Positions 731 through 21,087 of a stretch of 64,000 bases of DNA are shown piece after piece. Source of the stretch: Acutalibacter sp. 1XD8-33. Its GTDB lineage: Bacteria > Bacillota > Clostridia > Oscillospirales > Acutalibacteraceae. Location of the stretch: contig NZ_RAZF01000015.1 in NCBI RefSeq assembly GCF_003612555.1, positions 1-64,000 on the forward strand, read 5' to 3'. How positions within the stretch are numbered: the stretch's first letter is position 1; every line of letters starts with the position of its first letter. Under the pieces are notes generated by a model. That model saw only the letters and a program-made list of their open reading frames with translations. It made no database searches and had not been told where the DNA came from. The position numbers and the translations under genes are program-made.

Positions 731-803
731 TTAAAACGGCTTTTCCGGGGGTAAAGGATAAATGTACCGCATACCCATTGAGCAGCAGCCGGAAAGCCTT
801 GAT

Positions 804-2811: not shown

Positions 2812-3178
2812 TGGCTTCACCTACTTTCTGCAAGACTTCAAACTTCAAGGCGGCAAGCTCGGAGAGGGCGGCTCGTACCTCTTGGGAGAGGGCGTTATAA
2901 GGTGTGCCGTACTCGTTCAGACAGCGGGCAATCTGGTTTAAGTTGCCGCCGATTTTTCCATACTCGGCGGTTAACTTCCCAACGGCAGATAACAATTCAT
3001 CATTGACCGGGGAAACAGTGATAACCGGGCGTATGCTTGACTTGGTTAGGGCTTGCCGGATATATTCAGACTGGCTCATTTTGTAGAGGGAAATGCGCTC
3101 GGAAAACTCTGTATATTCTTCCTCGGTCAAGCGTGTCTTGATTACCCGGCGGCGGTGGGGCGTATTGTACTTTTTCAT
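2783..3178 (-). CDS. mobC: MobC-type relaxosome accessory protein
   Basis: A 131-residue protein with an N-terminal ribbon-helix-helix-like region (RLTEEEYTEFSERISLYKMS) and the MobC signature GGNLNQIARCLNE in the middle. MobC proteins bind next to the nick site and help the relaxase load. The ATG at 3178 follows AAGGAGG with a good spacing; a longer reading frame to 3229 has no ribosome site. It is directly upstream of and overlaps the relaxase. The probable oriT lies just upstream at about 3240-3320. Confidence 0.88.
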   Translation of the reverse strand: MKKYNTPHRRRVIKTRLTEEEYTEFSERISLYKMSQSEYIRQALTKSSIRPVITVSPVNDELLSAVGKLTAEYGKIGGNLNQIARCLNEYGTPYNALSQEVRAALSELAALKFEVLQKVGEAIGNVQTYQL

Positions 3179-3240
3179 GGCTGTGAACCTCCTTTCTTGG
3201 GTGGATTTTTCAAGCGGCGCAAGCCGCAAAAAGGCGGGCT

Positions 3241-3441
3241 TGGGGTGGCAACCCCAACAAGATTCCCGCAGGACAAAATTGAGCGGTTAGCGAAATTTGG
3301 TACTGTGGTAGAATCTTGCTCTTAGAAAGTGGCGGCTTCCTCTGTGTGGGCTTTTGCTGATAACCCCGGCTTGCGTGGTGTGGATTGCGCCAATTTTGCG
3401 GCAGTTTTTTCTCCCGCTGTAAAGCCGGGGATAAGCAAAAC
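3241..3441. other. Candidate oriT and inverted repeats upstream of mobC
   Basis: This non-coding stretch between mobC and the next regulator contains nested inverted repeats: TGGGG/CCCCA (3241-3256), CAAGATTC (3258-3265) with GAATCTTG (3311-3318), and a longer imperfect pair (about 3350-3372 with 3422-3441) centred on CCCCGGCTT/AAGCCGGGG. The position immediately upstream of mobC and the relaxase fits an origin of transfer. The nick site cannot be assigned by eye. The 3350-3441 pair could also act as a terminator. Confidence 0.4.
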
Positions 3442-3518
3442 AGGCGTAAAAAAACAGGAAACCTTATTCCCCGATTTCCTGTTTCGTATCTTCGCCAGTA
3501 ACGGCGGTTATCTCTTTG

Positions 3519-3947
3519 TTATTCCCCGGAAACAAACTTGTAGCCTATCCCTAAAATGGTCTTTATGTAAGTGGGACTCCTGCTGTCCGGCTCTATCTTT
3601 TTCCGTAGATTACATATCACATTTGTAACGCTTGACTGGCAGCTTTCGCTCCCCATGCTCCACACGGCTTCAAAAATTTGCGCCTTTGTGAATACCCTCC
3701 CCGGACTGGCGGCAAGGTAGCAGAGTGCGCCGTATTCTAAACGGGTGAGGGAAACGTCAATCCCGTTTTTCAGTACCCGGCGTTGGTGTAGTCTGATTTC
3801 CAGTCCGGGGAAAACCAGCGCGGGGGAGTGGGGCGGCTGTATGGCTTCCAGCGGTATCATATCCGCAAGGGCGGCTATGGCTTTTTCAACTGCTTTTTCC
3901 TCGGTATCATTGAATATCAGCATGGCTATTTTCCCGACAAACCTCAC
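3519..3947 (-). CDS. OmpR-type winged-helix regulator without receiver domain
   Basis: A 142-residue protein. Residues 45-140 form an OmpR/PhoB DNA-binding domain (LTRLEYGALCYLAASPGRVFTK, then IKTILGIGYKF). The N-terminal 40 residues are too short for a phosphoacceptor receiver and show no conserved aspartate pocket, so phosphorylation control is unlikely. It probably regulates element genes. The GTG start at 3947 sits inside AGGAGGTG; an ATG at 3923 is the alternative. It lies between the sigma factor/HTH pair and the mobilization operon. Confidence 0.75.
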   Translation of the reverse strand: MRFVGKIAMLIFNDTEEKAVEKAIAALADMIPLEAIQPPHSPALVFPGLEIRLHQRRVLKNGIDVSLTRLEYGALCYLAASPGRVFTKAQIFEAVWSMGSESCQSSVTNVICNLRKKIEPDSRSPTYIKTILGIGYKFVSGE

Positions 3948-3967
3948 CTCCTGTCATGCCGCCTTTT

Positions 3968-4168
3968 TCAGTCAAAGCGGAACTGGAACAGGGCAGTGAT
4001 AAGCCGCCGTTTTATGCTGTCCTCGGTGTCTGTGTTGACGTGCCCGTTTTCAAGGGCGGCAAAGCGGATTCGTTTGCTGTAATGCCGTAAAACCTCGTCC
4101 ACGGCTTCCGGCTCGCCGTTTGTCGCCCGGACAATGGTTTCATATGGCACAAGGTTAGTATTCCCCAT
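3968..4168 (-). CDS. Small helix-turn-helix protein (HTH_16-like)
   Basis: A 66-residue protein resembling the small helix-turn-helix proteins that follow the sigma factor in Tn916- and Tn1549-like elements (YETIVRATNGEPEAVDEVLRHY). The ATG at 4168 follows GGAGGG and overlaps the end of the sigma-factor gene by 14 bases, which implies coupled translation. It probably takes part in controlling element transfer or excision genes. The family assignment rests on the sequence pattern and the position. Confidence 0.75.
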   Translation of the reverse strand: MGNTNLVPYETIVRATNGEPEAVDEVLRHYSKRIRFAALENGHVNTDTEDSIKRRLITALFQFRFD

Positions 4169-7526: not shown

Positions 7527-8281
7527 CTAACTGACTTTCTTTTTCGGCTGGTTGCTTTTCTTTCCCTCCCGCCTTGCCCTCTGCTGGTCGGCTTTCTTCC
7601 GGCGGTATGCCACAAGCCGTTCCGTTTCCTCCGGCGTGAGGTCTGCCCCGGTCTTTTCAACCGCCATTAGCTCCTTTATGGATTTCTGCCTGGGCGGCTT
7701 CTCCGGCTCTGTGGCTTTTCGTTTCTCCCGCCATTCCTTTTGCCACTCCCGGTTGTGTGCAAGCCGCTTTTCCTCGGCTTCCTGTTCCTCCGGGGTGAGA
7801 AGCCCCGCCTTTTTCCTCGCGGTAAATTCCCGTTTCTCTGCCTTGCGTTTCTCATACCGCGCCTTTGCAAGCTCCTTTGACCGGGCTTCCTTTGCCGCCT
7901 GTTCCTCACGCTGGCGGCCTTGTTCCTCTACCTCTGCCGGGGTGACGATATATTCCGGCACTTCAAAAGCCCCGATAAAGTTCAGATAAATGTCTATCCG
8001 CTGGCGGCGGTCATTCCCCCGCCCCTCGCCCTCATGCACAACCACTTTCTCAATAAACTCATTGAGCATGGGCGTTGTAAGCTCGGAGAAGTCGGTATAG
8101 CGTTTCACAAGCTGGATAAACTGGTCTGTTTTCAGCCTGTCGGCGTTCCAGTTTTCAATCTGCCTCTGCCATTCGGCTATGGACGTTTCCAGTCCGGTCT
8201 GTTCCTCGTCATATTCATTCAGCAGCCGGGTAAAATGTTTGTCGGGTATCTTGCCCGTGGCGTTGCCCTCAGAGAGCTTTT
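7527..8281 (-). pseudogene. C-terminal half of a large serine recombinase, severed by insertion
   Basis: The frame encodes the C-terminal part of a TnpX-like large serine recombinase: the region after the zinc ribbon, then the DUF4368-type tail with a very charged end (EEQAAKEARSKELAKARYEK and similar). It has no start codon. Reading upstream, it stays open to the junction at 8275-8281, where the codons for K-L-S-E-G-N begin. The missing N-terminal half ends with K-K-L at 21116-21122, 12.84 kb away. The two halves join in frame, so one gene was split by the intervening element. Confidence 0.85.
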
Positions 8282-8300
8282 GTCAAGGGTAAATTTGTCC

Positions 8301-8352
8301 AAACAGATTTTACCCATGTAGAAAGACATATTCTACACAGGTAAATCTGTTT
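8301..8352. repeat. Imperfect inverted repeat at the left end of the inner element
   Basis: Arms 8301-8323 and 8331-8352 (AAACAGATT...GTAGAA) pair with few mismatches around a 7-base loop. The repeat lies about 20 bases inside the element boundary and about 40 bases past the radical SAM stop codon. It could be an attachment-site arm recognised by the recombinase, or the transcription terminator of the cargo operon; there is no long T run. Confidence 0.55.
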
Positions 8353-8394
8353 AAGATTATCCAAATATAAAGTATTGAGCGAATATAGCAAGAT

Positions 8395-10257
8395 TTACGG
8401 GTTTTCCATCATTCTTTTTGCATCATCCCTGGTAATACAGTAGTATCGAAGAACATTCAATACGTTATTATTATCAGTTTCATCTTGGATGTTGGTAAAA
8501 ATATTTTTTTCAATGATTGGTCTAGCAATTTCCATCTCTTCATCAGAAAGCGCCGAAAACGCAGCCCACCATTGATTAGTTAAGCCAATTCCTTCAAAGA
8601 AAAAACGATATATAATCATGGCTTCTGGCATATAAAGCAGCTTATAATATTCTTGCTCATTCGCTCCAAATGCTTTGCAAAAGAAATCATGCCCACGGCC
8701 CACCTTGCCTTTGGTAGAATTTAGGATGGCCTGAATTGTGCGGATGAATTTCCGGTTCCAATATTTCCCGATGAAGTCGCGGTTATCAAAATATTCTGGA
8801 TCTTCTATTGGATGGTATTTCATTGGGAATGAATAAATACTTGCACCTAATTCTTCACACAGATCAACGTTTAACTTAAGCCTCAAATATAGTTCAACTG
8901 GGAGGTCTTCAAAATTATAAAGAATATAATTGGAAAGGTTTGTATGTCCATTCCGAACAGCTGTGCGCACAGCATTCTCATATATATCGCGTAACTCCCA
9001 GTGGTCAAAAGCAATCCGCACAGGTCTAATGGGTATTTCCGCTAATTTTTTCATATTAGCATCAGTGATTAGTCGTGCATCAATGCCCTGATTGAAATCG
9101 ACATGACGTTGCTTGGGTTTTTTAGAGTAAACTGTTTCAAAATAAGGGCGCAGTTCCTCGTATGTACGAAGGATAGCGGCCTTTGTCGCTGTATAATCCT
9201 CTAGGAGATAATTGTCCCTCAATAAATCATAAACTGCTTGAACCTGATTACGTCCTACTTTGTTCAGTAGCAGCCGAAATTGGCGTACACACATTTTGAT
9301 ATACCCTCGATCATTATGCCCGCTACGCAAATTTTGAATTGCTATTTCATACAGATTAGGAGAGGTATATGTTGCATTGCGACCAAATCCTGCGGCGATA
9401 ATATCATCGACAATATCATTAAAACGACAAGATGCAAGAACATTATTGTCCAGCAAAAGTAAATCTCTTTTAGCTCCATAGCGTTCTTCGGCAATATGAA
9501 CTTGCTCCGACACAGGGAGAAATTCTGTGTAAACAGGCTCAAGTTTCGGTACAGCACAGAATTTACATTTATTAACACAGCCGCGTGTCATATAGGCAAA
9601 ATAAGCATCTGACGCAGGATATTGGTACTCGATTTCTTCTAATATTGAATAATCGAGCGGTAAAGTATCAATTATCAAATCACTTTCGGGGTCTAGTTCG
9701 CCAGGGGTATGCAGCGTTCCGATATGTGGTCTTATACCTGTTTCTGCTTCAACACGATCAGCAAGAATAGACGCCATAATTCCGCCTACCATTACACCGT
9801 CAGCTGTTTTACAGAGCTGTTTTGCAAAGTTGATTGTTTCAATCGTAATGTCCCAATAAAATGTAAATAATGTGGTAATCCCTACTCGGTCGTATTTTCT
9901 AAATTCCGGTTCAAAATATCGTTTGCGGTAGAAATATTGCCGATAAAACTTGAATAGTGCCTCAATAATTGGATTTTCTTCAACCTTTGGGACTCCATTC
10001 AATGAAGACTTCGTGCCTTTTTTGATATACTGGCAAATTTGAGGTTTATACTGTTCCCAAAAAACGGTATTATCGTTGGCATAAAGCTGCTCCTTCAGCA
10101 TCTCAAACGTATCATCCAGCACCAGGTCTATCAAATCGCCCTTGAAAAAAGTCACATGATCTCCCAACCTTTTGTAATAGGTTGAAAGTTTCATTAGCCC
10201 CATCGGTGGATATTTATTTTTATAGTTGGGCTCAACTAATAATATTTGACGGTTCAT
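8395..10257 (-). CDS. Radical SAM protein with B12-binding-like N-terminus (cargo operon, last gene)
   Basis: A 620-residue protein. Residues 1-50 resemble the start of cobalamin-binding-type domains of B12-dependent radical SAM enzymes (VEPNYKNKYPPMGLMKLSTY), and a GGIMAS segment follows near 158. The 4Fe-4S motif is CVNKCKFC (C227, C231, C234), the CxxxCxxC of radical SAM enzymes. The C-terminal 380 residues are unusual and not assigned. The substrate is unknown; a protein, a nucleic acid or a small molecule is possible. Its ATG overlaps the GHKL gene stop (ATGA), so the two are translationally coupled. It is the last gene of the NurA-HerA-GHKL-radical SAM operon. Confidence 0.88.
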   Translation of the reverse strand: MNRQILLVEPNYKNKYPPMGLMKLSTYYKRLGDHVTFFKGDLIDLVLDDTFEMLKEQLYANDNTVFWEQYKPQICQYIKKGTKSSLNGVPKVEENPIIEALFKFYRQYFYRKRYFEPEFRKYDRVGITTLFTFYWDITIETINFAKQLCKTADGVMVGGIMASILADRVEAETGIRPHIGTLHTPGELDPESDLIIDTLPLDYSILEEIEYQYPASDAYFAYMTRGCVNKCKFCAVPKLEPVYTEFLPVSEQVHIAEERYGAKRDLLLLDNNVLASCRFNDIVDDIIAAGFGRNATYTSPNLYEIAIQNLRSGHNDRGYIKMCVRQFRLLLNKVGRNQVQAVYDLLRDNYLLEDYTATKAAILRTYEELRPYFETVYSKKPKQRHVDFNQGIDARLITDANMKKLAEIPIRPVRIAFDHWELRDIYENAVRTAVRNGHTNLSNYILYNFEDLPVELYLRLKLNVDLCEELGASIYSFPMKYHPIEDPEYFDNRDFIGKYWNRKFIRTIQAILNSTKGKVGRGHDFFCKAFGANEQEYYKLLYMPEAMIIYRFFFEGIGLTNQWWAAFSALSDEEMEIARPIIEKNIFTNIQDETDNNNVLNVLRYYCITRDDAKRMMENP

Positions 10258-11831
10258 TTGCTCAGTTCTTCCTGTATTTTACTTATGACGATTTCCGCAG
10301 TATCATGAGGAAGGATCGCTTTTAGGATTGAATAAATTCTGCTAATCAGCTTTTGCTCTTTTCGATTATATTTGCTTAGGGATTGTGTCATGTACCCTTT
10401 CGGTTTTTCAGAACACGGTTTGCTTTGTGGGGGTGTCTCCTCGCCAGACTCATCAACTGATGGGGCATAGTCAGAGCGAAGGGCGCTGTATACCCGACCC
10501 AATACTTGGTCTGTGGCTTCTTTTTGCTCACGAGTTTCAATAGTTTTTGCGGCTCGTTCTGCGGCCTTTTTCAGTTCCTCAATTTTCTTCTCACTAGCAG
10601 CCTGATCTTCCGCGTCTATAAATCCTCCGCTTGCCATTCTTTGCTCATGCTCTTGCTGAGTAGCCTGAAGTTCGGATTGTTTTTGGAGCGCCTTTTTATA
10701 CTCGTTAGCGCGATGATAGATGGTGTAGAAAGTATCATAAAACAGAGGGCGAAGAGTTCGTTCAAAGAGGCGACAGGTATCGTTCAAATTGAAATAATCC
10801 CGGCGTGCATTGGGGATCAAATTTTTCCCCACAGCAAAAACTTCTCCAACAAAATATAAGCATCCGCGAGGCTCCTTATAAAAATCGTGAGCCGAGAAAG
10901 TGTTCTCATTGCCGATTTGGATATTGGCCTTGCGCAAACGAATACCCCGCATAGGATTTATAGCTGGGATTTGCTTTTCAAATTTACTGACCCCATACCA
11001 CATCCATGCAATAGTTTCACCATTGGTATCTTTAAAAATCTCGAATTTAACATCAGAAAGTTCATCGTATGCTTTCTTTGAGTGGTTATGGGGCTCATAA
11101 AGTTTCCTTGAATAAGGCTTAAACAGACGTTCTCCATTTATGAATACTTGATATTCGTCAATGGTAAATCCATTTTGGCGGGCAAATTCAGCAATCTTGC
11201 TTTTGAATGTAAATCCTGTGGCATAGGGAATAGGAGCAACTGCCTCCAAGTATTTTTGCACATTATCCTTATCTAAAAGTTCCGCCGAAGATTGCTCAAT
11301 ATCTATCAGCTCAACTAAGAAAAAATGTTCATCAATATCGCATACATCCTGGCTGTAGGTTGTGACCATATCAACAAGTTCGCCAGCAGAGGGATTTTGC
11401 TTTTCATCTACCAATATATCGCGAACTTGTTGTGCATCCCAAACACATACTGATGCCGTCTGTTCTCCACGCACCGAACACGAGAATTTCAGTGTTTTGC
11501 AGGAAGAAATGCCTCCTAATCGACCAATGCCACGGAAACCTTTGTCCTCCGCCCGATCCTTTTCAGAGTCGGCAATGCGGCTCATTTTACGGAGGAAGTC
11601 ATCGCAACTGATCCCTGTCCCATTATCCCGAACAGATACATACCTTTTGTTGGCGTCTATATTGATTTCTATCCGGGCCTCCTCTAGGCGGAGTAACCCC
11701 TGCTTAATTGCTTTGTCGATTGAGTCTGCTGCATTCTGAACATATTCACGGTATATGATCCGCAAATCTTCATACATTGCAGTCGTGAGGTTTTCGATAA
11801 CATTTTTTCCGATTATAGCCATAAAGCTCAT
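10254..11831 (-). CDS. GHKL (Hsp90-type) ATPase of the cargo operon
   Basis: About 525 residues. The N-terminal Bergerat ATP-binding fold shows the N box REYVQNAADS (E29, N33), the G1 motif VRDNGTGIS (D69) and the G2 motif GFRGIGRLGG (98-107), as in Hsp90, MutL and MORC proteins. The middle domain ends near residue 350 (NLIPNARRDYF). A Lys/Glu/Ala/Gln-rich coiled coil (about 375-435) and a small helical C-terminal domain follow. ATP-driven dimer closure is expected. The start at 11831 is one base after the HerA stop; ATG 11822 is an alternative with AGGATGA upstream. The stop overlaps the radical SAM start by 4 bases. It probably acts as a switch or clamp with the HerA-NurA pair (inference). 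Confidence 0.85.
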   Translation of the reverse strand: MSFMAIIGKNVIENLTTAMYEDLRIIYREYVQNAADSIDKAIKQGLLRLEEARIEINIDANKRYVSVRDNGTGISCDDFLRKMSRIADSEKDRAEDKGFRGIGRLGGISSCKTLKFSCSVRGEQTASVCVWDAQQVRDILVDEKQNPSAGELVDMVTTYSQDVCDIDEHFFLVELIDIEQSSAELLDKDNVQKYLEAVAPIPYATGFTFKSKIAEFARQNGFTIDEYQVFINGERLFKPYSRKLYEPHNHSKKAYDELSDVKFEIFKDTNGETIAWMWYGVSKFEKQIPAINPMRGIRLRKANIQIGNENTFSAHDFYKEPRGCLYFVGEVFAVGKNLIPNARRDYFNLNDTCRLFERTLRPLFYDTFYTIYHRANEYKKALQKQSELQATQQEHEQRMASGGFIDAEDQAASEKKIEELKKAAERAAKTIETREQKEATDQVLGRVYSALRSDYAPSVDESGEETPPQSKPCSEKPKGYMTQSLSKYNRKEQKLISRIYSILKAILPHDTAEIVISKIQEELSK

Positions 11832-11832
11832 C

Positions 11833-13527
11833 CTACTTTGACTTGAATTGTTTGTAAATCGGCTTTGGGAAACGGACATTAAGCAATGAGCGGAACACAG
11901 GATTTTGGATAATATACTCTCCTTGCTTAAGCCGTACCATCATACTTTTATATACAGAAGGAATAAACTTGTAATCATTTTTGGCGATTTCGATTGCGTT
12001 TGTCCGGCCATATGCAAATGTTGAGCAGTTACCTGTTACACGGGGATGGATTGCACTCTTAAATTGTTCCGCAGCAAACAGCACAACACCAAGCGAGCGG
12101 CCACGTTCAGCAATATCAAGAACTTGCCGAAGGATAGGAGATGTCTTGGGCGCGTCTGATGCTGCATATTTGTTAAGTTCATCAACAAATACGACGATTT
12201 TTGAGGGAGGCACATATTCATCGTCCGCACTGTACTGTCCAAGCTGCAAATCATAAATTGCCCGTATTGCATCACCAAACACAAAGCACTGCATATCATC
12301 GTTCAGTTTTGCGATATCTATGACATGGACTTCGTTCTTCCGTATATGCTTAAGCGCATCGCTAATCCGGGTTTCTCGATGCCCGTCTTTTATGCTATCG
12401 AACATTCCGTTTCGATAGATTGACTTTTTAACTATGCGCTCAAATTTGCGCCAGCTTTGGACGGTGATTTCCTTATCGCCGGTACTTCCGGCTTCTCCGC
12501 ACTTGTGAACCTCATTGAGGAAGTCTTGCCAGTCTTCTAAACTTCCAAAATTTCCGCGACCAGAAATAATATAGCTTAAGATAGAGTCCATGGTTTGTGT
12601 AGGATCATCCATGCTAGCGAACATCAAGTCAAGATTATCCTTGTCCATCTTGTACTCGTATTTATACATATGGGCCTTATCATGGGTGATATTATACTCA
12701 ACGGCTTCGGGGGCAAGATGGGTATTCCATGTGTTGCGAGTAGAGTATGGATAATAATAGTGAACATTGCGGAAGGGATGTGTAGTCATACCAAGGTCAC
12801 GGTATATTGCAAATGTTTCCTCCCGCTCTGCATCACTGGCAAACTCATTTGGCTCATCAATGGCAAGCAAATCGCATCCTTTGACATTGAAAATGACAAA
12901 AGCAACGTCTTCATCGTCCTGCTCACCACCGGCTGCCATACACTTGTCCTGTATTCCCTTTAAGAGGAACATGGCAAATGAGGTCTTTGCAGCCAAGCCA
13001 GAGATACCAGAAATATTGAGATGCGCTCCTTCTGGGCCAATGAGGTATCGTGAGTCAACATCCACACGCAGTTTTACACGCTCATCTTCATCTGCTCCCT
13101 GGTACATTTCAATATATCCACATGGAACAGGATTCTGGATAGAAGAGAGTCCTAATGCTTCCGAAATTTCATCTCTGTTTGCTAAACAAACAGTTTTTCC
13201 GCTTAAAACAGGAATATAAATCCCTTGGGTATTTCCCACGATCCTGGCCTTAACGTAGTTCATTCCAATCCGATGGGTGACGGGCATAGTTGATACATCA
13301 CCAAAGTCATTTGAGATATACTCGGAAAGGAAATTAGCTGTATCAGTGATATGTGATATTTCTTCAACTACACCATAGGTGACACTCGATTTAATATGTT
13401 CAACCTTAACGACATCGAACGGATTTAGTATCAACTCAGGTTTCGTCCAGAAAAAGAATTCCTCCATTGTTGAGGGATTTTTCTCTGTCGCAAGAACCTT
13501 TCCTATAACTTTTCCCATATCCACCAT
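11833..13527 (-). CDS. HerA-like hexameric translocase ATPase of the cargo operon
   Basis: A 564-residue P-loop ATPase of the HerA/FtsK superfamily. An N-terminal HerA-like beta-barrel (about 1-110) precedes the Walker A region GISGLAAKTS (174-183), in which the usual Gly before Lys is Ala. The Walker B motif is KIVVFVDEL (443-451). Downstream lies RSLGVVLFAAEQ and a candidate arginine finger in HPRVTGN. HerA ATPases pump DNA into the NurA nuclease, and the gene directly upstream codes a NurA-like protein. The start follows AGTGAGG and lies 8 bases after the NurA stop; the stop is one base before the GHKL start. Hydrolysis with the altered Walker A is expected but unproven. Confidence 0.88.
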   Translation of the reverse strand: MVDMGKVIGKVLATEKNPSTMEEFFFWTKPELILNPFDVVKVEHIKSSVTYGVVEEISHITDTANFLSEYISNDFGDVSTMPVTHRIGMNYVKARIVGNTQGIYIPVLSGKTVCLANRDEISEALGLSSIQNPVPCGYIEMYQGADEDERVKLRVDVDSRYLIGPEGAHLNISGISGLAAKTSFAMFLLKGIQDKCMAAGGEQDDEDVAFVIFNVKGCDLLAIDEPNEFASDAEREETFAIYRDLGMTTHPFRNVHYYYPYSTRNTWNTHLAPEAVEYNITHDKAHMYKYEYKMDKDNLDLMFASMDDPTQTMDSILSYIISGRGNFGSLEDWQDFLNEVHKCGEAGSTGDKEITVQSWRKFERIVKKSIYRNGMFDSIKDGHRETRISDALKHIRKNEVHVIDIAKLNDDMQCFVFGDAIRAIYDLQLGQYSADDEYVPPSKIVVFVDELNKYAASDAPKTSPILRQVLDIAERGRSLGVVLFAAEQFKSAIHPRVTGNCSTFAYGRTNAIEIAKNDYKFIPSVYKSMMVRLKQGEYIIQNPVFRSLLNVRFPKPIYKQFKSK

Positions 13528-13535
13528 GACCTCAC

Positions 13536-14696
13536 TTAGAATAAGTTCAAAAACATACTTTCGCCTAGATATTTACTTTTCACATAGCTTTCGGTTACAT
13601 ATATCGGATATAGATGATTTGCCCACCTTCGGTCAGCACCATAGCATACAGGGTTTCGCTCATTGATGATATTTGCTGTAATCATATCGACTTCTTCTGA
13701 GTCAAGGCCCTGTTCTACTTGCTCATCGCTTACGAGTATTTTTTCCAATTTTAGTACGCCATCAAAGGTGTTGTTTGTATAACGACTTTCGCGGATGCGG
13801 ACAAACCATACTGCGAATGTTACATCACCAATGACTGGCGAGTCATACATTTGAACTGGTGTCCTTGAATAAAGGGGGAGCTGGGCAATTTGAGAAGAGT
13901 TGTTGCGTCCATCCTTATCAATACAATAAGCTGGATTAAAAGATTTGGATACACCAACTACAAACTGATAATTATTTTTAAACCTCGCCAACTCTGCCTT
14001 ACTGGATATTCCATGCACCTGATATTCGAGGGAACCGTCTTTAAGCAGAAACCTTGTTGGTAGAAGATGTCCCCTTCTAACAAGCTCTGCTACCATCCGA
14101 ATTTCACGCTGGGCCATATATTTTTGTATCACAGCTATCCCTTTATTTTCTATTTTATCGCCCTGTGCAACACTTGTAGAGTAGGGTATGATTTTCGCAA
14201 ACTCAACGCCCTTTTCTCGGAGGTCTGCTCGTGCGTTTATCTTTTTGAGTAAGTATTCAAAACTTAATTCGTCATCATCCCAATCACTGGATTTTGCAAC
14301 TTTGGGAAGAGAGATAACGAGATGCCGCTCATATGCCGGGGCTTTTAATGGAAACATTTCTCCTTGTTCGCGCAGACAGCACCCAACTCCAACCTGTCCA
14401 GCAATAATAGGATAAATCTGATTTCGGTATGACATATCATCGACTTTATATGTCTTCCGCGACCCATCAAGGAAATAATGAAAGAGCGGTTCCGTACCAA
14501 CAATTTGATCGACTACTCGTTTCAGTGGAACAGTCTTTTTGTGGGTTTCTGTTTCACCATATCGTTTCCAAGTGAAGTGATATTGATGATCGTCATAATC
14601 AAAGCGAGGGACTTCAATACCGTCAAATCCATACTTATATGTCTTAAAGCTACTTCCATGGGTCTCAGAAGCGATAATATCTAGGATAGATGCCAT
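13536..14696 (-). CDS. NurA-like nuclease of the cargo operon
   Basis: A 386-residue protein. Features of the NurA fold are visible: an early acidic FLDGSR motif (D77) after a strand, a central MAQREIRMVAEL helix followed by LLKDGSLEY (D220), then VGVSKSF, and near the C-terminus HLYPIYVTESYVKS (about 361-374). In NurA these aspartates bind manganese at the active site. NurA works as a toroidal nuclease stacked on HerA, and here the HerA gene is next. The ATG at 14696 has AGAGGAGGGA upstream. It is the first gene of the four-gene operon. The assignment is from motifs and context, not an alignment. Confidence 0.75.
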   Translation of the reverse strand: MASILDIIASETHGSSFKTYKYGFDGIEVPRFDYDDHQYHFTWKRYGETETHKKTVPLKRVVDQIVGTEPLFHYFLDGSRKTYKVDDMSYRNQIYPIIAGQVGVGCCLREQGEMFPLKAPAYERHLVISLPKVAKSSDWDDDELSFEYLLKKINARADLREKGVEFAKIIPYSTSVAQGDKIENKGIAVIQKYMAQREIRMVAELVRRGHLLPTRFLLKDGSLEYQVHGISSKAELARFKNNYQFVVGVSKSFNPAYCIDKDGRNNSSQIAQLPLYSRTPVQMYDSPVIGDVTFAVWFVRIRESRYTNNTFDGVLKLEKILVSDEQVEQGLDSEEVDMITANIINERNPVCYGADRRWANHLYPIYVTESYVKSKYLGESMFLNLF

Positions 14697-14791
14697 TAGC
14701 TAGTCCCTCCTCTGCCGCTGACGTTCGAGAAGTGTAATTGCAATAAACATAGGGCTATCTTGCGCTGGGTAGCCTTACACTTGGTATAATA

Positions 14792-15337
14792 CTACAGACG
14801 CCGACATTTTTCAACAACCTCCTGCTCAATTATCCGTGTAATAGGATCAATTATATAAATATTTCTTCCAAGCTGTCTGGCATAGTGTACCGTCGCTCCA
14901 GTACCGCTACGCCGAGCGCCATTGTAAACGGCTAATAAGATGGAAGAATGATCTACCAGGTAGCGGTTCCGTTTCATCATACAGTCCCTGCTATACGCTT
15001 GCCTCACATAGATAACCTCATTGGCCTGTACTAAAATAGAACGATAGAGTTCCTGCGCTGATGCTGTCCACTTGCTCTCCTGTCCCTTGCAGGGCAGGAC
15101 ACAATGGAGCTTCAGCGCAGGATTTTTCTTTTTGAGGTCGAGAACAATTTCGCTGCACCAGAGGTCTGTCCCCTGGGCCATCCCCGACAAAAAATCCGTC
15201 ACGCCTCTATCCGCCAGTGCCTCAATCTGTGCCATCAGGACTTCCTTCAGCAAAACGCAGTCAGAGGCAGTTTCATCATACTTCCAGGGAAAACTTTTTG
15301 GCCGGTGGCCAGTAAATGCGCAGGTTGTCTCTGTCAT
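14792..15337 (-). CDS. SLOG-family (DUF1273/YpsA-like) protein
   Basis: A 181-residue SLOG-superfamily protein: CAFTGHRPKSFPW at the N-terminus, SGMAQGTDLWCSEIV near 54-68, VLPCKGQE, and NGARRSGTGATV near 142-153, which together outline a Rossmann-like nucleotide-binding pocket. SLOG proteins bind or process nucleotide ligands, some in conflict systems; YpsA-type members are also common free cargo of mobile elements. ATG 15337 has GGGAGG upstream. The gene is 95 bases upstream of the NurA-like gene on the same strand, so it may be the first cistron of the cargo operon. Confidence 0.82.
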   Translation of the reverse strand: MTETTCAFTGHRPKSFPWKYDETASDCVLLKEVLMAQIEALADRGVTDFLSGMAQGTDLWCSEIVLDLKKKNPALKLHCVLPCKGQESKWTASAQELYRSILVQANEVIYVRQAYSRDCMMKRNRYLVDHSSILLAVYNGARRSGTGATVHYARQLGRNIYIIDPITRIIEQEVVEKCRRL

Positions 15338-15464
15338 TGGAACAATCCTCCCATACAAATAGTTGCTCCGCATTATACCAAAAAATCTTGCAAATATCTA
15401 TTATCGTAGACTACCATTTTCACGTTTTCTCATACACTATCTGTTGAGAAAGCGGGGTGAGGCG
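15338..15464. promoter_or_regulatory. Divergent promoter region between the SLOG gene and the XRE regulator
   Basis: The minus strand carries a TATAAT -10 box at 15372-15377 about 35 bases upstream of the SLOG gene start. The XRE regulator is transcribed away on the plus strand. A regulator that overlaps such a promoter would be well placed to control the cargo operon. No operator repeat was identified with confidence. Confidence 0.5.
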
Positions 15465-15701
15465 GTGCAATTCGACAATAGTGCGGTTGGGAGGACGATA
15501 CGCAATCTTCGCAATAAAAAGGGTGTATCCCAAGATGTTTTGAGTGGCTTTGCGGGAATTGCCCGTACTCATCTGACGATGATTGAGAACGGGGATAAGC
15601 AGGCCAACTTTGAAACACTTTGGAAAATCGCTAATGCGCTGGATATGCGCCCCAGTGAGCTTGTTGCCCTAATTGAGGCCGAAATAGAGCAAAATAGTTG
15701 A
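15465..15701 (+). CDS. XRE-family helix-turn-helix regulator
   Basis: A 78-residue protein that is almost entirely one Cro/cI-type helix-turn-helix domain (VGRTIRNLRNKKGVSQDVLS, then ARTHLTMIENGDKQAN). A GTG start at 15465 is chosen for its preceding GGGGTGAGG; longer in-frame starts lie upstream but would extend into the promoter region. It is the only plus-strand gene in the inner element and is divergent from the SLOG-NurA-HerA-GHKL-radical SAM genes, so it may repress them. Confidence 0.8.
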   Translation: MQFDNSAVGRTIRNLRNKKGVSQDVLSGFAGIARTHLTMIENGDKQANFETLWKIANALDMRPSELVALIEAEIEQNS

Positions 15702-15793
15702 TATTATGGAACGGGGTGCGGCAGTAACGGCAAGCAATGGCTCGGTATATACCGACCCCCGCTTGTTGGTGGCTGACCGCCCCCAAGCCCCGT

Positions 15794-15822
15794 AAGGAGC
15801 GGCGCAACGCGCCGCTCCTTTT
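15794..15822. terminator. Hairpin terminator after the XRE gene
   Basis: A perfect 12-bp stem (15794-15805 with 15809-15820) around an AAC loop, followed by a short T run on the plus strand. It separates the XRE gene from the convergent relaxase operon. Confidence 0.65.
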
Positions 15823-15875
15823 AAGCCGCCTTCGGCGTCTGCTGCCCCCTTGGGGGACGGGGGAATATCGAGAGA

Positions 15876-17264
15876 TTATCGTTCTTCCTGGCGTTGTTTC
15901 TGCCGTTTTTCTTCCTCGGATAGGCTCAAAATTCTCTCGGTGTTGTGTCTGGCGGTGAGTAGTTCCATCATCTCCGCCTTAGCTTTTTTCTGGTCGGGGT
16001 ACAGCTTTCTGTTCTCCGCTGACAGAGCGGCGTACTCCTGTTTTAGAGATTGAATTGAGGGCCGTTTCTTCAGCCCCAGACTGTCAAAATACCGTTTCGC
16101 CGCCTCACAGGAAATAATGGCGCTGGCGTGTTGGGCGTAAAATTCTTCTTGCTTTTTGGGCGGCAGTCTGCGATACTGTGCGTAAATCTCGCGGGTCTTG
16201 CTGTATGTGCCGATGTGCCTTTGTAGCGCAGAGATTTCCTCCATCCTCGCGCTGTTGGCCTTGGTGCGGTCAGCGAGGTCATGGTACTTCTGAGCGGCGG
16301 CATCACAGGCTGCTTCCAAATCCGCATAGGCCAACAGGTCATGCTCCTGCAAAAAACTCAGCGTCTTTGCCATCTCTTTCAGATTGAACACACTGGCCCA
16401 CCGCTCATAGCCAGGGAAACGGGCCTGCTGCATTTTCGACTGAATGTCGATCAGCAGATTAGGTGCTACCTGTTTCTGCACCGGCGTGATGACCCGCTTG
16501 CCGGAGATGCGCTCCAGGATAGCAGCCTCGGTGTAATCCTCGCCCAGAGAGGAACAGCGAATGAATTTCTTGCCGCCTGGGATTTTGAAGGCCAGGTGCT
16601 TGCCCCGCTTGACCTCCACGCCTGCCGTTTTCAGCGCCGCCAGGAAGCTGTCAAAGTCTTTGCAGCCGGTCAGAGTGGCGTCAATCATCCGCTCCAACTG
16701 TTCCCGAACGGTGGGCGGTTTCTCACCCAGCCAGTTGCCGTAGCTGCCCCGGCTGGGCTTCGGATTTTCGATTACCGACAGACCATTTTCAAGGCAGAGA
16801 ATGTCGGAGATTTTTCGGACGGCGAACGAGGAATCCCAAAAATTATTGAACTTTCGGGAGCAATCCAATGAAGTGGAATTGAACACAATATGCGAGTGAA
16901 TATGTTCCTTGTCCACATGAGTGCAGACGATGAAAGCGTGTTTTCCCTTCGTCAGCGACATCGCCAGCTCATAGCCGATTTTGTTTGCCAACTCCGGCGT
17001 GATCTCTCCCGGCTTGAACGACTGCCGCAGATGGTAGGCAATCACGTCATGCGCTTTCTGATTGCGCCCGGTCATCGTGGCGTATTGCCGCTTTGAAAAA
17101 AGAAACTCCTGATCCACGATGGCCGGATTGCATTGGTAGGCTGACACCAGTTCACCGCCGTCCGTTTTCTCAGGATTTTTCACATAATCGGTTGTCCTGC
17201 CCAGGGCCTCGGCCACCGTCCGGCCCTTGCCTGTATGGAGGGGCATCAGGCGTGTTGTTGCCAT
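15876..17264 (-). CDS. MOBP-type relaxase of the inner element
   Basis: A 462-residue relaxase. The N-terminal domain has the histidine cluster CTHVDKEHIHSHIVFNS (H116, H121, H123, H125), and a possible nucleophile Tyr lies in the first 30 residues (TTDYVKN). The second half is helical and charged. It differs clearly from the outer element's relaxase (1180-2811). It would nick the inner element's oriT, probably near 17.7 kb, so that the excised circle can be mobilized by a co-resident conjugative element. It is preceded by MobC. Confidence 0.9.
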   Translation of the reverse strand: MATTRLMPLHTGKGRTVAEALGRTTDYVKNPEKTDGGELVSAYQCNPAIVDQEFLFSKRQYATMTGRNQKAHDVIAYHLRQSFKPGEITPELANKIGYELAMSLTKGKHAFIVCTHVDKEHIHSHIVFNSTSLDCSRKFNNFWDSSFAVRKISDILCLENGLSVIENPKPSRGSYGNWLGEKPPTVREQLERMIDATLTGCKDFDSFLAALKTAGVEVKRGKHLAFKIPGGKKFIRCSSLGEDYTEAAILERISGKRVITPVQKQVAPNLLIDIQSKMQQARFPGYERWASVFNLKEMAKTLSFLQEHDLLAYADLEAACDAAAQKYHDLADRTKANSARMEEISALQRHIGTYSKTREIYAQYRRLPPKKQEEFYAQHASAIISCEAAKRYFDSLGLKKRPSIQSLKQEYAALSAENRKLYPDQKKAKAEMMELLTARHNTERILSLSEEEKRQKQRQEER

Positions 17265-17274
17265 GCTCCGCCCC

Positions 17275-17553
17275 TCACTTCAACCGCGAGAGCTGCTCCA
17301 AAATCTCCCCGAACAGCCGGTTGGTTTCGTCTTGCTTGATGCAGATGTCGTGGGCCTCACCAGGGTAGACCGCGCCGCCGGAGTTCATCTGGCGGGCCAT
17401 TTGGTTGACATTGTTGGAGATATAGCGCAACAGCTTCGCGCACTCCGTCAGCTCTGGGATTTCCAGATTGACAACGTAGCCGTCAATCGCCATTTTACGG
17501 ATAAAGCCGCTCATATTGCGGACACCCGCCAATGCCATTTTTTGTTCGATCAA
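17275..17553 (-). CDS. mobC: MobC-type accessory protein with uncertain start
   Basis: At least 92 residues, with the MobC-like segment YISNNVNQMARQMNSGG and a ribbon-helix-helix-like N-terminus. The marked TTG start (17553) has no good ribosome site. The frame continues upstream for 19 codons of family-like sequence (ENGKQKGIYFKVSDKERD) to 17610, where AGGAGG is correctly spaced from a GTA codon rather than ATG or GTG. The real start codon may therefore have been lost or changed. The stop lies 10 bases before the relaxase start. Confidence 0.75.
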   Translation of the reverse strand: MIEQKMALAGVRNMSGFIRKMAIDGYVVNLEIPELTECAKLLRYISNNVNQMARQMNSGGAVYPGEAHDICIKQDETNRLFGEILEQLSRLK

Positions 17554-17680
17554 ATCCCGTTCTTTGTCGGAAACCTTGAAATAGATGCCTTTTTGCTTCC
17601 CATTTTCTACAGTAAAAATGCCTCCTAAAAAAATGGCGGCAGGATAAGGTAATCATATGGTCCCCTGCCCATGGCCGCTC

Positions 17681-17707
17681 TGAAAGCCCTGTGGCACAAG
17701 GCTTTCA
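17681..17707. other. Inverted repeat, candidate oriT of the inner element
   Basis: TGAAAGCC (17681-17688) pairs with GGCTTTCA (17700-17707) around an 11-base loop. It lies between the Cys-rich VLP gene and mobC. There is no T run, so an origin of transfer is more likely than a terminator, but the nick site is not known. Confidence 0.35.
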
Positions 17708-18082
17708 AGCTCCTAATTGTCCACGCTCCGCCCTGCGCCGCCGTTCGCTCTCGGCCTTTTGCTGGCGGTGAACAGCAGCGGCGCAGTCGGGACAGTATTT
17801 CCCCCGGTTGGAACCTGGACGGAACAGCGTCCCGCACTGGCAGCAGCGTTTGCTTTTGTTCTTGTAAAGCAGAGCTGTTTCCAATTCCCTGTCCAGCGGC
17901 AGGACAGCGGCCCGGAAGTATTTGCAGATTAGAGAACGGGAAATGCTTTGAACGCAGACGCATGGTTCCCAGCCGTCATCCAACAGCAGACAGTTTCCAT
18001 AGACATTGTTGCAGCACTGATGCACCAGCCCGCGAACACGCTGGAATTGCCGGTAATCAAAGTGGGGAAGGGTATTTTCCAA
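17705..18082 (-). CDS. Cysteine-rich VLP-domain protein of the inner element
   Basis: About 125 residues with the family's two cysteine clusters: HQCCNNVYGNC and later CCQCGTLFRPGSNRGKYCPDC-type zinc-ribbon cysteines. The C-terminus is basic. A TTG start at 18082 is preferred because AAAGGAT lies about 7 bases upstream and the product then matches the length of the family; longer frames run to 18193 without a ribosome site. It is a distant homologue of the protein at 804-1190 and is again close to the mobilization genes. Confidence 0.72.
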   Translation of the reverse strand: MENTLPHFDYRQFQRVRGLVHQCCNNVYGNCLLLDDGWEPCVCVQSISRSLICKYFRAAVLPLDRELETALLYKNKSKRCCQCGTLFRPGSNRGKYCPDCAAAVHRQQKAESERRRRAERGQLGA

Positions 18083-18149
18083 GCAATTATCCTTTCGTGA
18101 TTTGAATAAAAGGGAGCGGTCCGCAATCGCAGACCGCCCCTTGGCGTGA

Positions 18150-19937
18150 TTATGCACTTTCCTGTTCCTGCTGCTTTTTCCTCTCCTGCGCACGACGCCA
18201 CTTTTTACGGCCTTTGGCCCAACGCTGACGCACCTTTTCCATCTCTGCCAGTTCCTCCGGCATCAGCTCCGGGAGCGGCACGTCAAACTTGCCGATGAAT
18301 TTCAGATAGATGTCCACTTCCTGAGTGCGCTCTCCGCTGGAGCGGTCTGGCGCATGGACGAGGATTTTATCTACAAATTCGTAGATCATCGGGGTCGTCA
18401 GCACAGAGAAGTCGGTATACTTCCTTGCCAGCTCCAGAAATTGATCTACTCTGGCGGTATCCGCTTCAAAGGCATCCAGTTCAGCCTGCTCCTGGGCGAT
18501 GGCTACCTCCAATGCTTCTTGCTCCTGCTCATACTCGCCGGACAGCACCTCAAACCGCTTTTCCGAAATCTTCTCACCGGCGTATGCCTCGTAAAGTTTC
18601 CTTATGAGGCCGTCCAACTCTTTGGAGCGTTTGCAATCTTTGGCGAGTTTCCGTTTTAAGTCCTTTGCGGCCTGGGCCTGCCGAATTTCGGATGCTGCCC
18701 GGACTCTTTCGATAAACTCGGCCTCATTGGAAATGGCGTAGGTGCTGACCGTCCTGATGGTGTCCAGCAGCAGCGCCCGGATGTCCTTGGTACTGATGTA
18801 ATGCCCAAAGCACTCCTGCTTGGTGTGGCAAAATGTCAGGGCATAAGTAGAGCAATCGTAGTGGTCGTAGGGATAGAGGCCGCTCACTGGGTCTTTGCCG
18901 CGATTTTCTTTGCTGGCTTGCGCTCGGCCACGGTGGTTATACATTTTCGCCCCGCAGTCGGCACAATAGAGCAGGCCAGTCAGCGGATTAGCAACGCCGG
19001 TGGTGTCTGTGCGCCTTACTGTCTTGCGCAGCCGCTGAGCCAGTTCCCAAGTTTCCGGGTCAACGATGGTCTCATGGGTGTTCTCGATAATCATCCATTC
19101 CTCCGGTGGACGCTTGATAGCGCGTTTGTCCTTATAGGACTCCTTGTACGTCCGGAAATTGACCGTATGCCCCATATATTCCGGTTTTCCAAGAATATGC
19201 GAAATGCTTGTCCCATTCCAGTCATAGGGGCGGCTGGCATCAAAGCTGTTCCGCTGTGTCCCTTGCCCCCGCCTGCCCATGTAGACGGAAGGACACTCAA
19301 TTTTATCATCCCGCAGTATCCCGGCAATCTGGCTGGGGCCGTAGCCCTCTATGCTCAGGCGGAAAATACGCCGGACAACAGCGGCAGCTTCTTCGTCAAT
19401 CAGCCAGTGGTGCTTGTCCTCCGGGTCTTTGCGGTAGCCGAATATAGCGTGGCTGGTGGTGGGTTTGCCAGACTTGCCTCTGGCCTGATATGCTGCCTTC
19501 TGCTTCCGGCTGCAATCCCGCAAATACCACTCGCTCATGATGTTAATAAATGGGGCAAACTCCCCTGTACTCTGGTCTGCGCTGTCCACACCGTTGCCGA
19601 TAGCAATGAACCGAACACCCTTCTCGCGAAAGAGGACTTCGGTATAGAAACCAGTTTGAAGATAGTCACGGCCAATTCTGCTCATGTCTTTGGCAATGAC
19701 ACAGCCCACTTTTCCGGCCTCAATGTCCGCAATCAGCCGTTTCCAGTTGGGCCGCTCGAAGTTGCCGCCGGACCAGCCGTCATCGGTGTAGTGGATGCAG
19801 TTGGTAAAGCCGTGCTGGGCGGCGTAGCTCTCCAACTGCAATTTCTGATTGACAATCGAGTTACTGTCCCCAGCCGCCTCGTCATCACGACTAAGCCGCT
19901 CATAGAGGGCGGTAATTTTCTCCGTCTGCCTGCTCAT
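18150..19937 (-). CDS. TnpX-type large serine recombinase of the inner element
   Basis: A 595-residue large serine recombinase. The catalytic domain has the nucleophile Ser16 in TALYERLSRDD and the SRIGRDYLQTG arginine motif. A recombinase domain, a zinc ribbon (LLYCADCGAK plus later CSTY and CHTKQECFGH) and a long coiled coil follow. It would excise and integrate the 12.84-kb element at AGCTTTT. It is a relative of the gene it has disrupted (7527-8281 plus 21116-22407). The ATG overlaps the tnpW remnant stop (ATGA). Confidence 0.93.
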   Translation of the reverse strand: MSRQTEKITALYERLSRDDEAAGDSNSIVNQKLQLESYAAQHGFTNCIHYTDDGWSGGNFERPNWKRLIADIEAGKVGCVIAKDMSRIGRDYLQTGFYTEVLFREKGVRFIAIGNGVDSADQSTGEFAPFINIMSEWYLRDCSRKQKAAYQARGKSGKPTTSHAIFGYRKDPEDKHHWLIDEEAAAVVRRIFRLSIEGYGPSQIAGILRDDKIECPSVYMGRRGQGTQRNSFDASRPYDWNGTSISHILGKPEYMGHTVNFRTYKESYKDKRAIKRPPEEWMIIENTHETIVDPETWELAQRLRKTVRRTDTTGVANPLTGLLYCADCGAKMYNHRGRAQASKENRGKDPVSGLYPYDHYDCSTYALTFCHTKQECFGHYISTKDIRALLLDTIRTVSTYAISNEAEFIERVRAASEIRQAQAAKDLKRKLAKDCKRSKELDGLIRKLYEAYAGEKISEKRFEVLSGEYEQEQEALEVAIAQEQAELDAFEADTARVDQFLELARKYTDFSVLTTPMIYEFVDKILVHAPDRSSGERTQEVDIYLKFIGKFDVPLPELMPEELAEMEKVRQRWAKGRKKWRRAQERKKQQEQESA

Positions 19938-20270
19938 ACGGTACTCCCTTCAGGCTGACGGCTCATTTGTGGCAACATCATTATACCACATTCCGGGGCC
20001 ATGTCCATAGTCTCGCTGCCAATTAAACGGATAATTTTATCCTCCATGCTTTCCTGGGCGGTGTCACTGAAATGGATACGCACTTTGTATGTAGTAGACC
20101 CGATCCGCCGGTATATAACGACGGAGTTTTCCCTTTGAACTTCGCTGATAATTTCTTTCCTTTCCTGCGGTCAGGCCGCATTTCCAGCACTTCCAATCGG
20201 TACGGTTTTTTCGCGCAGGCGGGTGCTGGTTTCCCGCCAGTATGTCTACTATCGCCAATGCGATATCCAT
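19934..20270 (-). pseudogene. tnpW: TnpW remnant with frameshifts
   Basis: The 3' part translates to the conserved TnpW sequence: EIISEVQRENSVVIYRRIG, then YKVRIHFSDTA and MMLPQMSRQ. It ends with a TGA overlapping the recombinase ATG. The 5' part (KKPYRLEVLEMRPDRRK) is in another frame, because GGAAA is present twice in tandem at about 20153-20163 where relatives would have it once. A further shift separates the probable start (ATG 20270, GGGGGGAG upstream). TnpW is therefore inactive here. Confidence 0.75.
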
Positions 20271-20533
20271 CACAATGATCTCCCCCCTTTCGCTGAATGT
20301 ATTTGCGTGTGATCTGCCGTTCCTCCCAAACGTGGTTCCTGCCCCCGGCTTGCACGGCGGCGTTGTTCTCTCCATTGGCGCGCTCATGTCGTGGCGCACT
20401 TCACCTGAAGCATATCTCGTTCGGACGGTCATTCAGCTGTGGATGTGCATGAGGACTTCCCACTAAGCGTATACAAAATCCTTGTTTTATGCAGTCGAAT
20501 TTGGACGTTCATAAAAAATTTACAAATCGCCGT

Positions 20534-20566
20534 AAAAAGGACGGAACCGCCGAAGCAGTTCCGTCC
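20534..20566 (-). terminator. Rho-independent terminator downstream of tnpV
   Basis: On the minus strand GGACGGAAC (20558-20566) pairs with GTTCCGTCC (20539-20547) and is followed by five Ts. It lies 16 bases after the tnpV stop codon. Confidence 0.8.
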
Positions 20567-20581
20567 AGTCCAATTTTCTCT

Positions 20582-20941: not shown

Positions 20942-21087
20942 AGTCATCAGCTCCTTTGTGGTGGTATGTTGAATGCAGTCGCAGAAAACGCCGAATTTTG
21001 TGGTATCACCGCCCTTCTCACAACTGCTTATGTCATTTTTGCCACAAATGAGCCGCAGCTATGTTGTATTTGGCAAGGCGGTCAGCC

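Follow-up and report, generated by a model that had tools for sequence, protein, structure and literature searches.

A NurA-HerA-GHKL-radical SAM operon of Acutalibacter sp. 1XD8-33 as a candidate restriction-modification-like defence system with a proposed exchangeable modification module

The window analyzed in this work is a stretch of 64,000 nucleotides from Acutalibacter sp. 1XD8-33 (positions 1 to 64,000 of contig NZ_RAZF01000015.1, assembly GCF_003612555.1), whose genome comprises 3.6 Mb and has a completeness given as 99.98%. On its minus strand we confirmed four intact open reading frames (ORFs) that form a single operon. They encode a NurA-like nuclease (13536-14696, 386 amino acids), a HerA-like DNA-translocating ATPase (11833-13527, 564 amino acids), a GHKL (HSP90/MutL-type) ATPase (10254-11831, 525 amino acids) and a radical S-adenosylmethionine (SAM) protein with a predicted cobalamin-binding-like N-terminal domain, which we propose to be a modification enzyme (8395-10257, 620 amino acids). 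The full GHKL ORF opens at 11879 and would encode 541 amino acids (10254-11879); an inner start lies 48 bases in, at 11831, and the proteins of many relatives begin near residue 20. With this inner start the genes are separated by a gap of 8 bases, a gap of 1 base and an overlap of 4 bases, as given in a preliminary description made from the sequence alone, and the residues numbered E45 and D85 in the full ORF, used below, become E29 and D69. The proteins contain the motifs FLDGSR (D77) and LLKDGSLEY (D220) in NurA, the Walker A-like GISGLAAKT (K181) and the Walker B VFVDEL (D449-E450) in HerA, the GHKL boxes with E45, N49, D85, G89 and GFRGIGR, and the cluster motif C227-x3-C231-x2-C234 in the radical SAM protein. 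We take these to be the catalytic motifs, with D77 presumably, judging from its motif, the catalytic aspartate of NurA.

Pfam and NCBIfam assign no NurA or HerA name to the proteins of the window, and both identities were confirmed by other comparisons. The identity of NurA is settled because its AlphaFold2 model (predicted local distance difference test score, pLDDT, 88.8) matches the fold of NurA from D. radiodurans: chain 7f6d_G is the sole Foldseek match at E<=1e-3 (E 4.6e-13, TM 0.53/0.61), so that the nuclease fold expected in the preliminary description is present in the predicted structure. A NurA profile built from the relatives has a single match up to E 5, the NurA chain 7f6d_H, at a non-significant E of 0.069. 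The corresponding HerA profile matches D. radiodurans HerA (7f6d_B) with E 8.1e-51, and in PADLOC the protein weakly matches mad8 (9.4e-7) and the HerA models (5e-4). The third protein matches Pfam HATPase_c_3 (9.5e-12) and the ATPase domain alone of HtpG (2ior, 4e-11). It lacks the middle and C-terminal domains of HSP90, as far as the 60 PDB matches listed go, which span approximately positions 6-89 of 520; its score against the HtpG model is 36 bits, the cut-off being 371, and its PADLOC match is to MzaB (0.0036). The fourth protein matches phrog_9298 (9.7e-40) and, under the gathering score, PF04055 (E 3.9e-4). It has no close sequence relative among solved structures, and the folds nearest to its model (pLDDT 90.5) are the cobalamin radical SAM enzymes TsrM and MgmA, followed by MiaB and AprD4, with TM-scores of about 0.3-0.5. 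The model supports a cobalamin-type radical SAM fold, and the N-terminal domain, at these modest scores, may be of the cobalamin-binding-like kind. Among relatives, D77, E198, D220 and H361 of NurA are invariant in 71/71 proteins, K181 and D449-E450 of HerA in 70/70, E45, N49, D85, G89, G117 and G119 of the GHKL protein in 73/73, and the three cysteines of CxxxCxxC in 83/83 radical SAM proteins; these counts exclude proteins under the length limit, count one contig twice (as L009 and L045) and include the second GHKL protein of L061 as one row. The four assignments proposed from motifs in the preliminary description have therefore been borne out.

A scan of genome contigs with the radical SAM alignment yielded 457 relatives, of which the best 80 were examined; the proportions given here hold for these best matches. 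All four genes, in the same order and on the same strand, occur in 66 of the 80 loci, and 12 of the 14 incomplete loci are truncated by contig ends. Where at least 4600 upstream bases are available, 64 of 66 loci keep all four genes, the exceptions being L061 and L084. The gene order is thus conserved across genomes beyond what chance would give, and the relatives are not found mostly alone or in housekeeping loci, a result that would have refuted the preliminary description by its own terms. The gaps within four-gene loci are mostly of -4 to 24 bases; a gene is split into two frames in a few cases (GHKL in L045, L064, L067 and L072, HerA in L073), and ORFs are inserted within the operon in L069, L070, L078 and L090. 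According to the record labels (available for 77 of the 80 loci), the loci span 12 phyla; on a HerA tree with 67 rows the Bacillota label must change five times or more, which suggests horizontal transfer. The distribution is sporadic: of 148 near relatives only the host genome itself has a NurA-like gene, and within the order 6 of 394 genomes, the host included, have one. In two distant relatives within the order (G470 and G299) all four genes are retained and align over long stretches at 31-54% identity, although HerA is in two pieces in G299. A search with the NurA protein retrieved no plasmids, two phage records and no confirmed relative in the viral contigs.

Several loci depart from the four-gene arrangement. 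In L035, L046, L052, L061, L062 and L069 the radical SAM gene is succeeded by a gene of approximately 220-270 amino acids and then by a second GHKL gene; in L061 (9914-14167) NurA and HerA are absent. In L084 (7132-11806) a lone radical SAM relative lies behind a ClpB-like gene and the other three genes are absent. An extra gene is located between HerA and GHKL of four-gene loci in L090 (7130-8437, DndB/DpdB-like, DpdB match 4.7e-15) and in L078 (6257-7630, an AAA_15-type ATPase), and a protein of 2020 amino acids without a PADLOC match at E<=0.001 is encoded 5' of NurA in the four-gene locus L205 (7259-13321).

The four-gene operon has a sister type, which we identified in a sample of 398 genomes of the window's phylum that was not ranked by similarity and to which score limits were applied. 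HerA was detected in 12 of these genomes (E<=1e-10), namely in four with the four-gene operon and in eight others, all of which possess NurA-HerA pairs accompanied by a large gene, k2, and in six cases also by a second gene, k3. Together with the viral contig L178, the sister loci have k2 in 9/9 and k3 in 7/9 cases. The k2 proteins have 1083-1111 amino acids (1127 in L178; in pieces in the fragment L311) and the k3 proteins 409-431 (411 in L178, 311 in L311), and the intact copies of both carry a short methyltransferase-like motif. Among PDB entries, one k2 protein has a match to adenine-specific DNA methyltransferases (3.3e-6); it also matched 79 plasmid records, among whose listed matches 14 of 15 genes are annotated as N-6 DNA methylase and align over 90% of its length with approximately 30% identity. 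The available text on the element ICEth1 of Thermus describes the order type IIG enzyme Tth111II (1106 amino acids), NurA-like protein (377 amino acids), TdtA and N4-N6 methylase (410 amino acids) (PMC5365140); the sister loci L306-L310 have the same gene order and similar protein sizes. By analogy in order and size, k2 and k3 would best be identified as a putative Tth111II-type IIG enzyme and a putative N4-N6 methylase, respectively.

Genes similar to k2 or k3 are present in 9/9 sister loci and in 0/66 four-gene genome loci; they were likewise detected in none of the four viral four-gene loci and in none of the 18 radical SAM loci of other architectures. Two further methyltransferase queries and a crude motif test, which had no positive control, also gave 0/66 for the four-gene loci. 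When a HerA tree was built from 32 chosen rows, the fragment L311 being left out, a single branch with support 98/97 separated the 23 four-gene members from the 8 of the methyltransferase type. Therefore, within one HerA-NurA lineage, the methyltransferase genes and the GHKL-radical SAM pair replace each other. The analysis also supports the guess, made in the preliminary description, of a protective mark that may come from the radical SAM enzyme. We also observed a very distant radical SAM-like protein near methyltransferase-type HerA-NurA pairs in L304 (1927-3537, profile E 6e-6) and L305 (15005-16525, profile E 6e-8).

The radical SAM-GHKL pair also occurs apart from HerA-NurA. A scan of viral contigs with the radical SAM protein found at least 406 relatives; among the best 80, to which the following proportions apply, 14 have a strong GHKL neighbor. 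Three of these 14 loci have all four genes (L094, L095 and L111), and the HerA scan added a fourth viral four-gene locus, L177. In the other 11 the radical SAM gene is followed by GHKL, with no NurA or HerA in the stretch. Eight of these pairs adjoin a cassette of a ParB-like gene, a small gene, an SNF2 helicase and another ParB-like gene (L096, L097, L099, L100, L102, L104, L106 and L108, the small gene being undetected in L106), one follows DrmA (2.8e-161), DrmB (1e-52) and a NERD-helicase (L101), and two have no recognized partner (L098, on a 7-kb contig, and L107). A separate GHKL scan gave 18 loci, distributed over 17 viral contigs. A radical SAM gene adjoins GHKL on 15 of these contigs; of the remaining two, L286 ends at the contig edge and L276 has no radical SAM gene in 19 kb. 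The contig with the Drm genes contains a further GHKL copy apart from its radical SAM gene (L278). Twelve plasmid records matched, and on all five that were examined a DGQHR gene, the radical SAM gene and GHKL stand in a row, with a PIN-like/ATPase pair, an SNF2 cassette or both nearby. The DGQHR domain is of the DndB/DpdB type: its representative in L108 matches TIGR03187 (4.3e-39) and DpdB (1.9e-17), and L103 also contains a DpdB match (2.4e-24). On the alphaproteobacterial plasmids L179-L182 the PIN-like protein is accompanied by its own ATP-binding protein (HATPase_c_3 in L181), and this pair is perhaps another effector module; a CD-NTase gene is also located near the three-gene row in L182.

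In the phylum sample, the radical SAM profile detects 8 of 398 genomes at E<=1e-10, and in all eight the gene belongs to a HerA-NurA or a Pbe operon: the host itself, three further four-gene loci (L204, L205 and L209) and four Pbe loci, where PbeA-PbeC-PbeD precede the radical SAM gene and GHKL is either present (L207 and L208) or not (L206 and L210). PADLOC recognizes PbeA (3.4e-243) and PbeC (5.6e-226) in L207 and PbeA (5.1e-235) in L210, and phmmer searches with the proteins of L207 identified PbeA (2.8e-213) and PbeC (1.9e-131) in L206, PbeA (1.3e-247) and PbeC (3.1e-158) in L208 and PbeC (2.8e-37) in L210. The small Pbe protein, TIGR04062, was found in all four loci with E-values of 6.6e-12, 1.2e-4, 6.2e-5 and 1.9e-7, all under the curated cut-off. 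GHKL was detected in 6 of the 398 genomes at E<=1e-20, all of them among the eight radical SAM genomes and always adjoining the radical SAM gene; assuming independent genomes, the hypergeometric probability of this co-occurrence is 5e-12. The usual partner of the GHKL protein thus appears to be the radical SAM enzyme and not the nuclease. Since it is the radical SAM gene that GHKL accompanies from one architecture to another, on the viral contigs (in 11 of 14 loci without NurA-HerA) as well as in the 398 genomes, the suggestion in the preliminary description that GHKL gates or recruits the nuclease is now less likely. As a separate observation, the Pbe-radical SAM-GHKL row of L207 is opened by a protein of 1156 amino acids (532-4002) with a segment similar to sigma-70 region 4 and a weak MzaA-like match.

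The radical SAM gene has no strong GHKL neighbor in the other 66 of the best 80 viral loci. Among phage records, the radical SAM protein of a Marinitoga virus matches 16, including that virus and the four-gene record MT836743; of the 14 further records three were examined. In two Bacteroides phages the gene lies near DNA methyltransferase and PAPS-reductase-like genes, and in one archaeal virus it is found among genes without methyltransferase or PAPS-reductase-like names. Phage radical SAM genes without GHKL would fit an orphan protective modification. Marinitoga camini virus 1 (L003) encodes NurA and HerA and has, on the opposite strand, a short radical SAM gene, with no GHKL match in the stretch. 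Record MT836743.1 (L002), labelled as a bacteriophage, contains the whole four-gene operon and a Schlafen-type gene, and perhaps represents part of a mobile element rather than a phage.

From the observed gene order, conservation, folds and exchange of modules, we consider it rather probable that the operon is a restriction-modification-like DNA defence system, in which the radical SAM-GHKL pair is an exchangeable modification module whose substrate and chemistry we infer. The DNA-degrading component would be the predicted NurA-HerA pair with its conserved putative active sites. By comparison with characterized HerA-NurA, HerA hexamers would feed double-stranded DNA into a NurA dimer for degradation; in T. 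kodakarensis, according to the available text, ATP hydrolysis by HerA is needed for the cutting of double-stranded DNA, and both strands are cut (PMC12977600). With the GHKL ATPase as its driver or clamp, the radical SAM protein may modify a target and so spare the resident DNA. Its likeliest target would be a DNA base, to which, judging from the fold, a C-methyl or a methylthio group may be added, with GHKL as a putative ATP-dependent clamp or loader. The same module would also be used by the Pbe/CxC-DndE, DISARM DrmAB and SNF2/ParB-like machines, often together with a DndB/DpdB-like DGQHR protein. Such use has a parallel in the available text of PMC10853773, in which DndDE-type or CxC-DndE cores are proposed to recruit other modifications and cytosine methylases are reported as their modification genes.

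More tentatively, and with somewhat less than even confidence, we suggest that the B12-type radical SAM enzyme and its GHKL clamp write a carbon-centered mark (a C-methyl or methylthio base) that is not used by the described restriction systems and is common to at least four unrelated restriction machines, and that the solo phage copies disguise phage genomes. The restriction-modification logic itself is known, and the new modification chemistry belongs only to this bold reading. If true, radical SAM chemistry would be a further route of marking self DNA beside methyltransferases, phosphorothioation and 7-deazaguanines, hence a new way of discriminating own from foreign DNA, into which several known restriction machines can plug. 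Pbe- and DISARM-type loci with a radical SAM gene would become interpretable, and the unexplained phage family of phrog_9298 radical SAM proteins would obtain a concrete hypothesis. Bacteria with these loci, including gut Clostridia and Bacteroidota, would contain an unseen DNA modification, and such a mark would be directly detectable by mass spectrometry.

A number of points weigh against the restriction-modification interpretation. We know of no modified base in these hosts. DNA is a much less frequent substrate of radical SAM enzymes than proteins, RNA and small molecules are, and none of the best structural matches (TsrM, MgmA, MiaB and AprD4) is a DNA enzyme. The GHKL gene is not found in two of the four Pbe genomes (G643 and G743), its copy beside the Pbe locus of G789 has one in-frame stop, and it was not found beside mid-length radical SAM genes such as L103, L105, L109, L110, L112, L222 and L225, so dependence of the radical SAM enzyme on GHKL is not universal. 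The mirror-tree analysis of 62 loci did not part NurA-HerA from the GHKL-radical SAM block, the partial correlations being 0.46 and 0.43 for the two blocks and 0.44 for NurA-GHKL. The result that DndC is found in none of the eight radical SAM genomes, the window's own included, at E<=1e-5 is weak because the control was positive in 4 of 14 genomes, with none over the cut-off. As to the exchange of modules, one k3 protein matches RNA/DNA methyltransferases with a weak 2.3e-4, and the methyltransferase negatives are based on eight queries in all and the motif test already mentioned, so that methyltransferases of other kinds may still lie near four-gene loci. If k2 is a type IIG enzyme like Tth111II, the sister loci have an endonuclease of their own, and HerA-NurA need not be the restricting component there; a sister-type operon of Thermus works in DNA donation, according to the available text of PMC5365140.

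This donation role underlies one of two alternatives that we regard as about equally improbable. In the other one, GHKL would sense the invader and license HerA-NurA, and the radical SAM enzyme would make or mature a small molecule or a protein part, without any mark on the host DNA. GHKL ATPases work as conformational switches, DNA is not the usual substrate of radical SAM enzymes (viperins make a nucleotide), the structural neighbors of the window's enzyme are small-molecule, protein and RNA enzymes, and all four genes are tightly packed, all of which would suit such a sensor-effector arrangement. Against it speaks that the radical SAM-GHKL pair takes the place of methyltransferase genes and that GHKL goes with the radical SAM gene and not with the nuclease. 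The radical SAM gene also occurs with the DGQHR/DpdB-like genes of DNA-modification systems, and it is joined to Pbe and DISARM cores, while other modification enzymes are reported for the CxC/DndE cores in the available text of PMC10853773. We therefore consider this explanation unlikely.

The donation alternative, to which we likewise give little credence, holds that HerA-NurA pumps and trims DNA in the transfer or maintenance of a mobile element, assisted or regulated by the other two genes. It is the main mobile-element rival of the restriction-modification interpretation and comes from the ICEth1 operon, which resembles the methyltransferase sister type in the order and protein sizes of L306-L310. 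The operon of the window indeed lies inside an element with a relaxase and a recombinase, and for T. thermophilus such a role of the ICEth1 proteins TdtA and NurA-like nuclease has been proposed; DNA donation requires TdtA, and its full efficiency also the NurA-like nuclease and Tth111II, as given in the available text of PMC5365140. On the other hand, the flanking mobile genes vary among relatives while the four genes are constant, the largest clusters of such genes reaching only near 10, 9 and 5 of the 80 loci (recombinases, integrases and relaxases, respectively), and the radical SAM-GHKL pair stands beside restriction cores without HerA-NurA. Finally, DNA repair is very improbable; here HerA-NurA would resect ends, as proposed for Deinococcus and archaea, while a lesion would be reversed by the radical SAM enzyme in the manner of spore photoproduct lyase. 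The matches of both HerA and NurA to the complex of D. radiodurans speak for it, as does the existence of that lyase as a radical SAM DNA-repair enzyme, but the genes are distributed sporadically (in the frequencies given above), have mobile-element and AbiE toxin-antitoxin neighbors, and show no spore photoproduct lyase among the matches listed. In addition, the HerA-NurA of T. kodakarensis leaves no overhangs of the kind needed for recombination, and the available text of PMC12977600 questions the role in end resection that has been reported for the archaeal complex.

Returning to the restriction-modification interpretation, we compared the operon with known systems. No PADLOC 2.0 (2023) system matches the four-gene set, and in a literature search that covered few subscription papers we found no description combining HerA, NurA, GHKL and radical SAM proteins, so that the operon can still be called a candidate undescribed system. 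With the HerA-NurA of D. radiodurans (7f6d) and archaea it shares HerA by profile, NurA by fold, the adjacency of the two genes and the invariant putative active-site residues; unlike them, it nearly always includes GHKL and radical SAM genes, is sporadic and often has mobile genes nearby. SIR2-HerA and DUF4297-HerA also couple a HerA-type ATPase to an effector (the weak PADLOC HerA matches are those given above), but they have two components and a different effector, without radical SAM or GHKL proteins. The similarity to MADS, with its eight mad genes, is limited to the weak HerA match to mad8, as the other three proteins have no mad match. The radical SAM protein resembles TsrM, MgmA and MiaB/RimO in its fold and CxxxCxxC cluster and differs from them in its DNA-defence context. 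Known DISARM modification genes are methyltransferases; in L101 the radical SAM-GHKL pair is found behind the DISARM-type genes, whereas the four proteins of the window have no Drm match. Nor do they have any Pbe or Dnd match, although the same radical SAM family follows the Pbe genes in the four loci described above; more generally, the signature genes of DISARM, Dnd, Pbe and Dpd have no PADLOC match at E<=1 among the four proteins. In the available text of PMC10853773, radical SAM is mentioned for DndC alone. The nearest described relative is the tdtA operon of Thermus ICEth1, likewise a set of four genes located on a mobile element, in which restriction-modification genes accompany an ATPase of the FtsK-HerA family and a NurA-like nuclease (PMC5365140, available text). 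It differs in having the type IIG enzyme and a methylase instead of GHKL and radical SAM, TdtA and Tth111II resembling their counterparts in the sister loci by order and size, and the term "radical SAM" was not found in the available text of that paper.

The operon is cargo of a mobilizable element of about 12.8 kb with approximate ends at 8283-21108, inferred from the interruption of a resident gene for a large serine recombinase, whose parts lie at 7959-8282 and 21109-22407 and match both ends of a recombinase. The element encodes a MobA/VirD2-type relaxase (15876-17264, minus strand; PF03432, 2e-33) and its own large serine recombinase (18150-19937, minus strand; PF07508, PF00239 and PF14287), to which the interrupted one is 44-46% identical, indicating a nested insertion; no flanking attachment repeat was found above chance. 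Directly upstream of the operon is a YpsA/SLOG-family gene (14792-15373; PF06908, 1.4e-27), next to a divergent ORF judged by eye to be helix-turn-helix-like (15363-15701). The SLOG gene was considered as a fifth component and rejected because the upstream genes differ between relatives. When the neighbors of the 80 loci were clustered by BLAST and each family was named by Pfam from one representative, an AbiEii-type gene was found just upstream in five loci (L036, L039, L052, L063 and L071) and a helix-turn-helix gene in five others (L033, L034, L040, L050 and L057), and a Schlafen/AlbA_2-HATPase gene was found downstream in four (L020, L021, L066 and L068).

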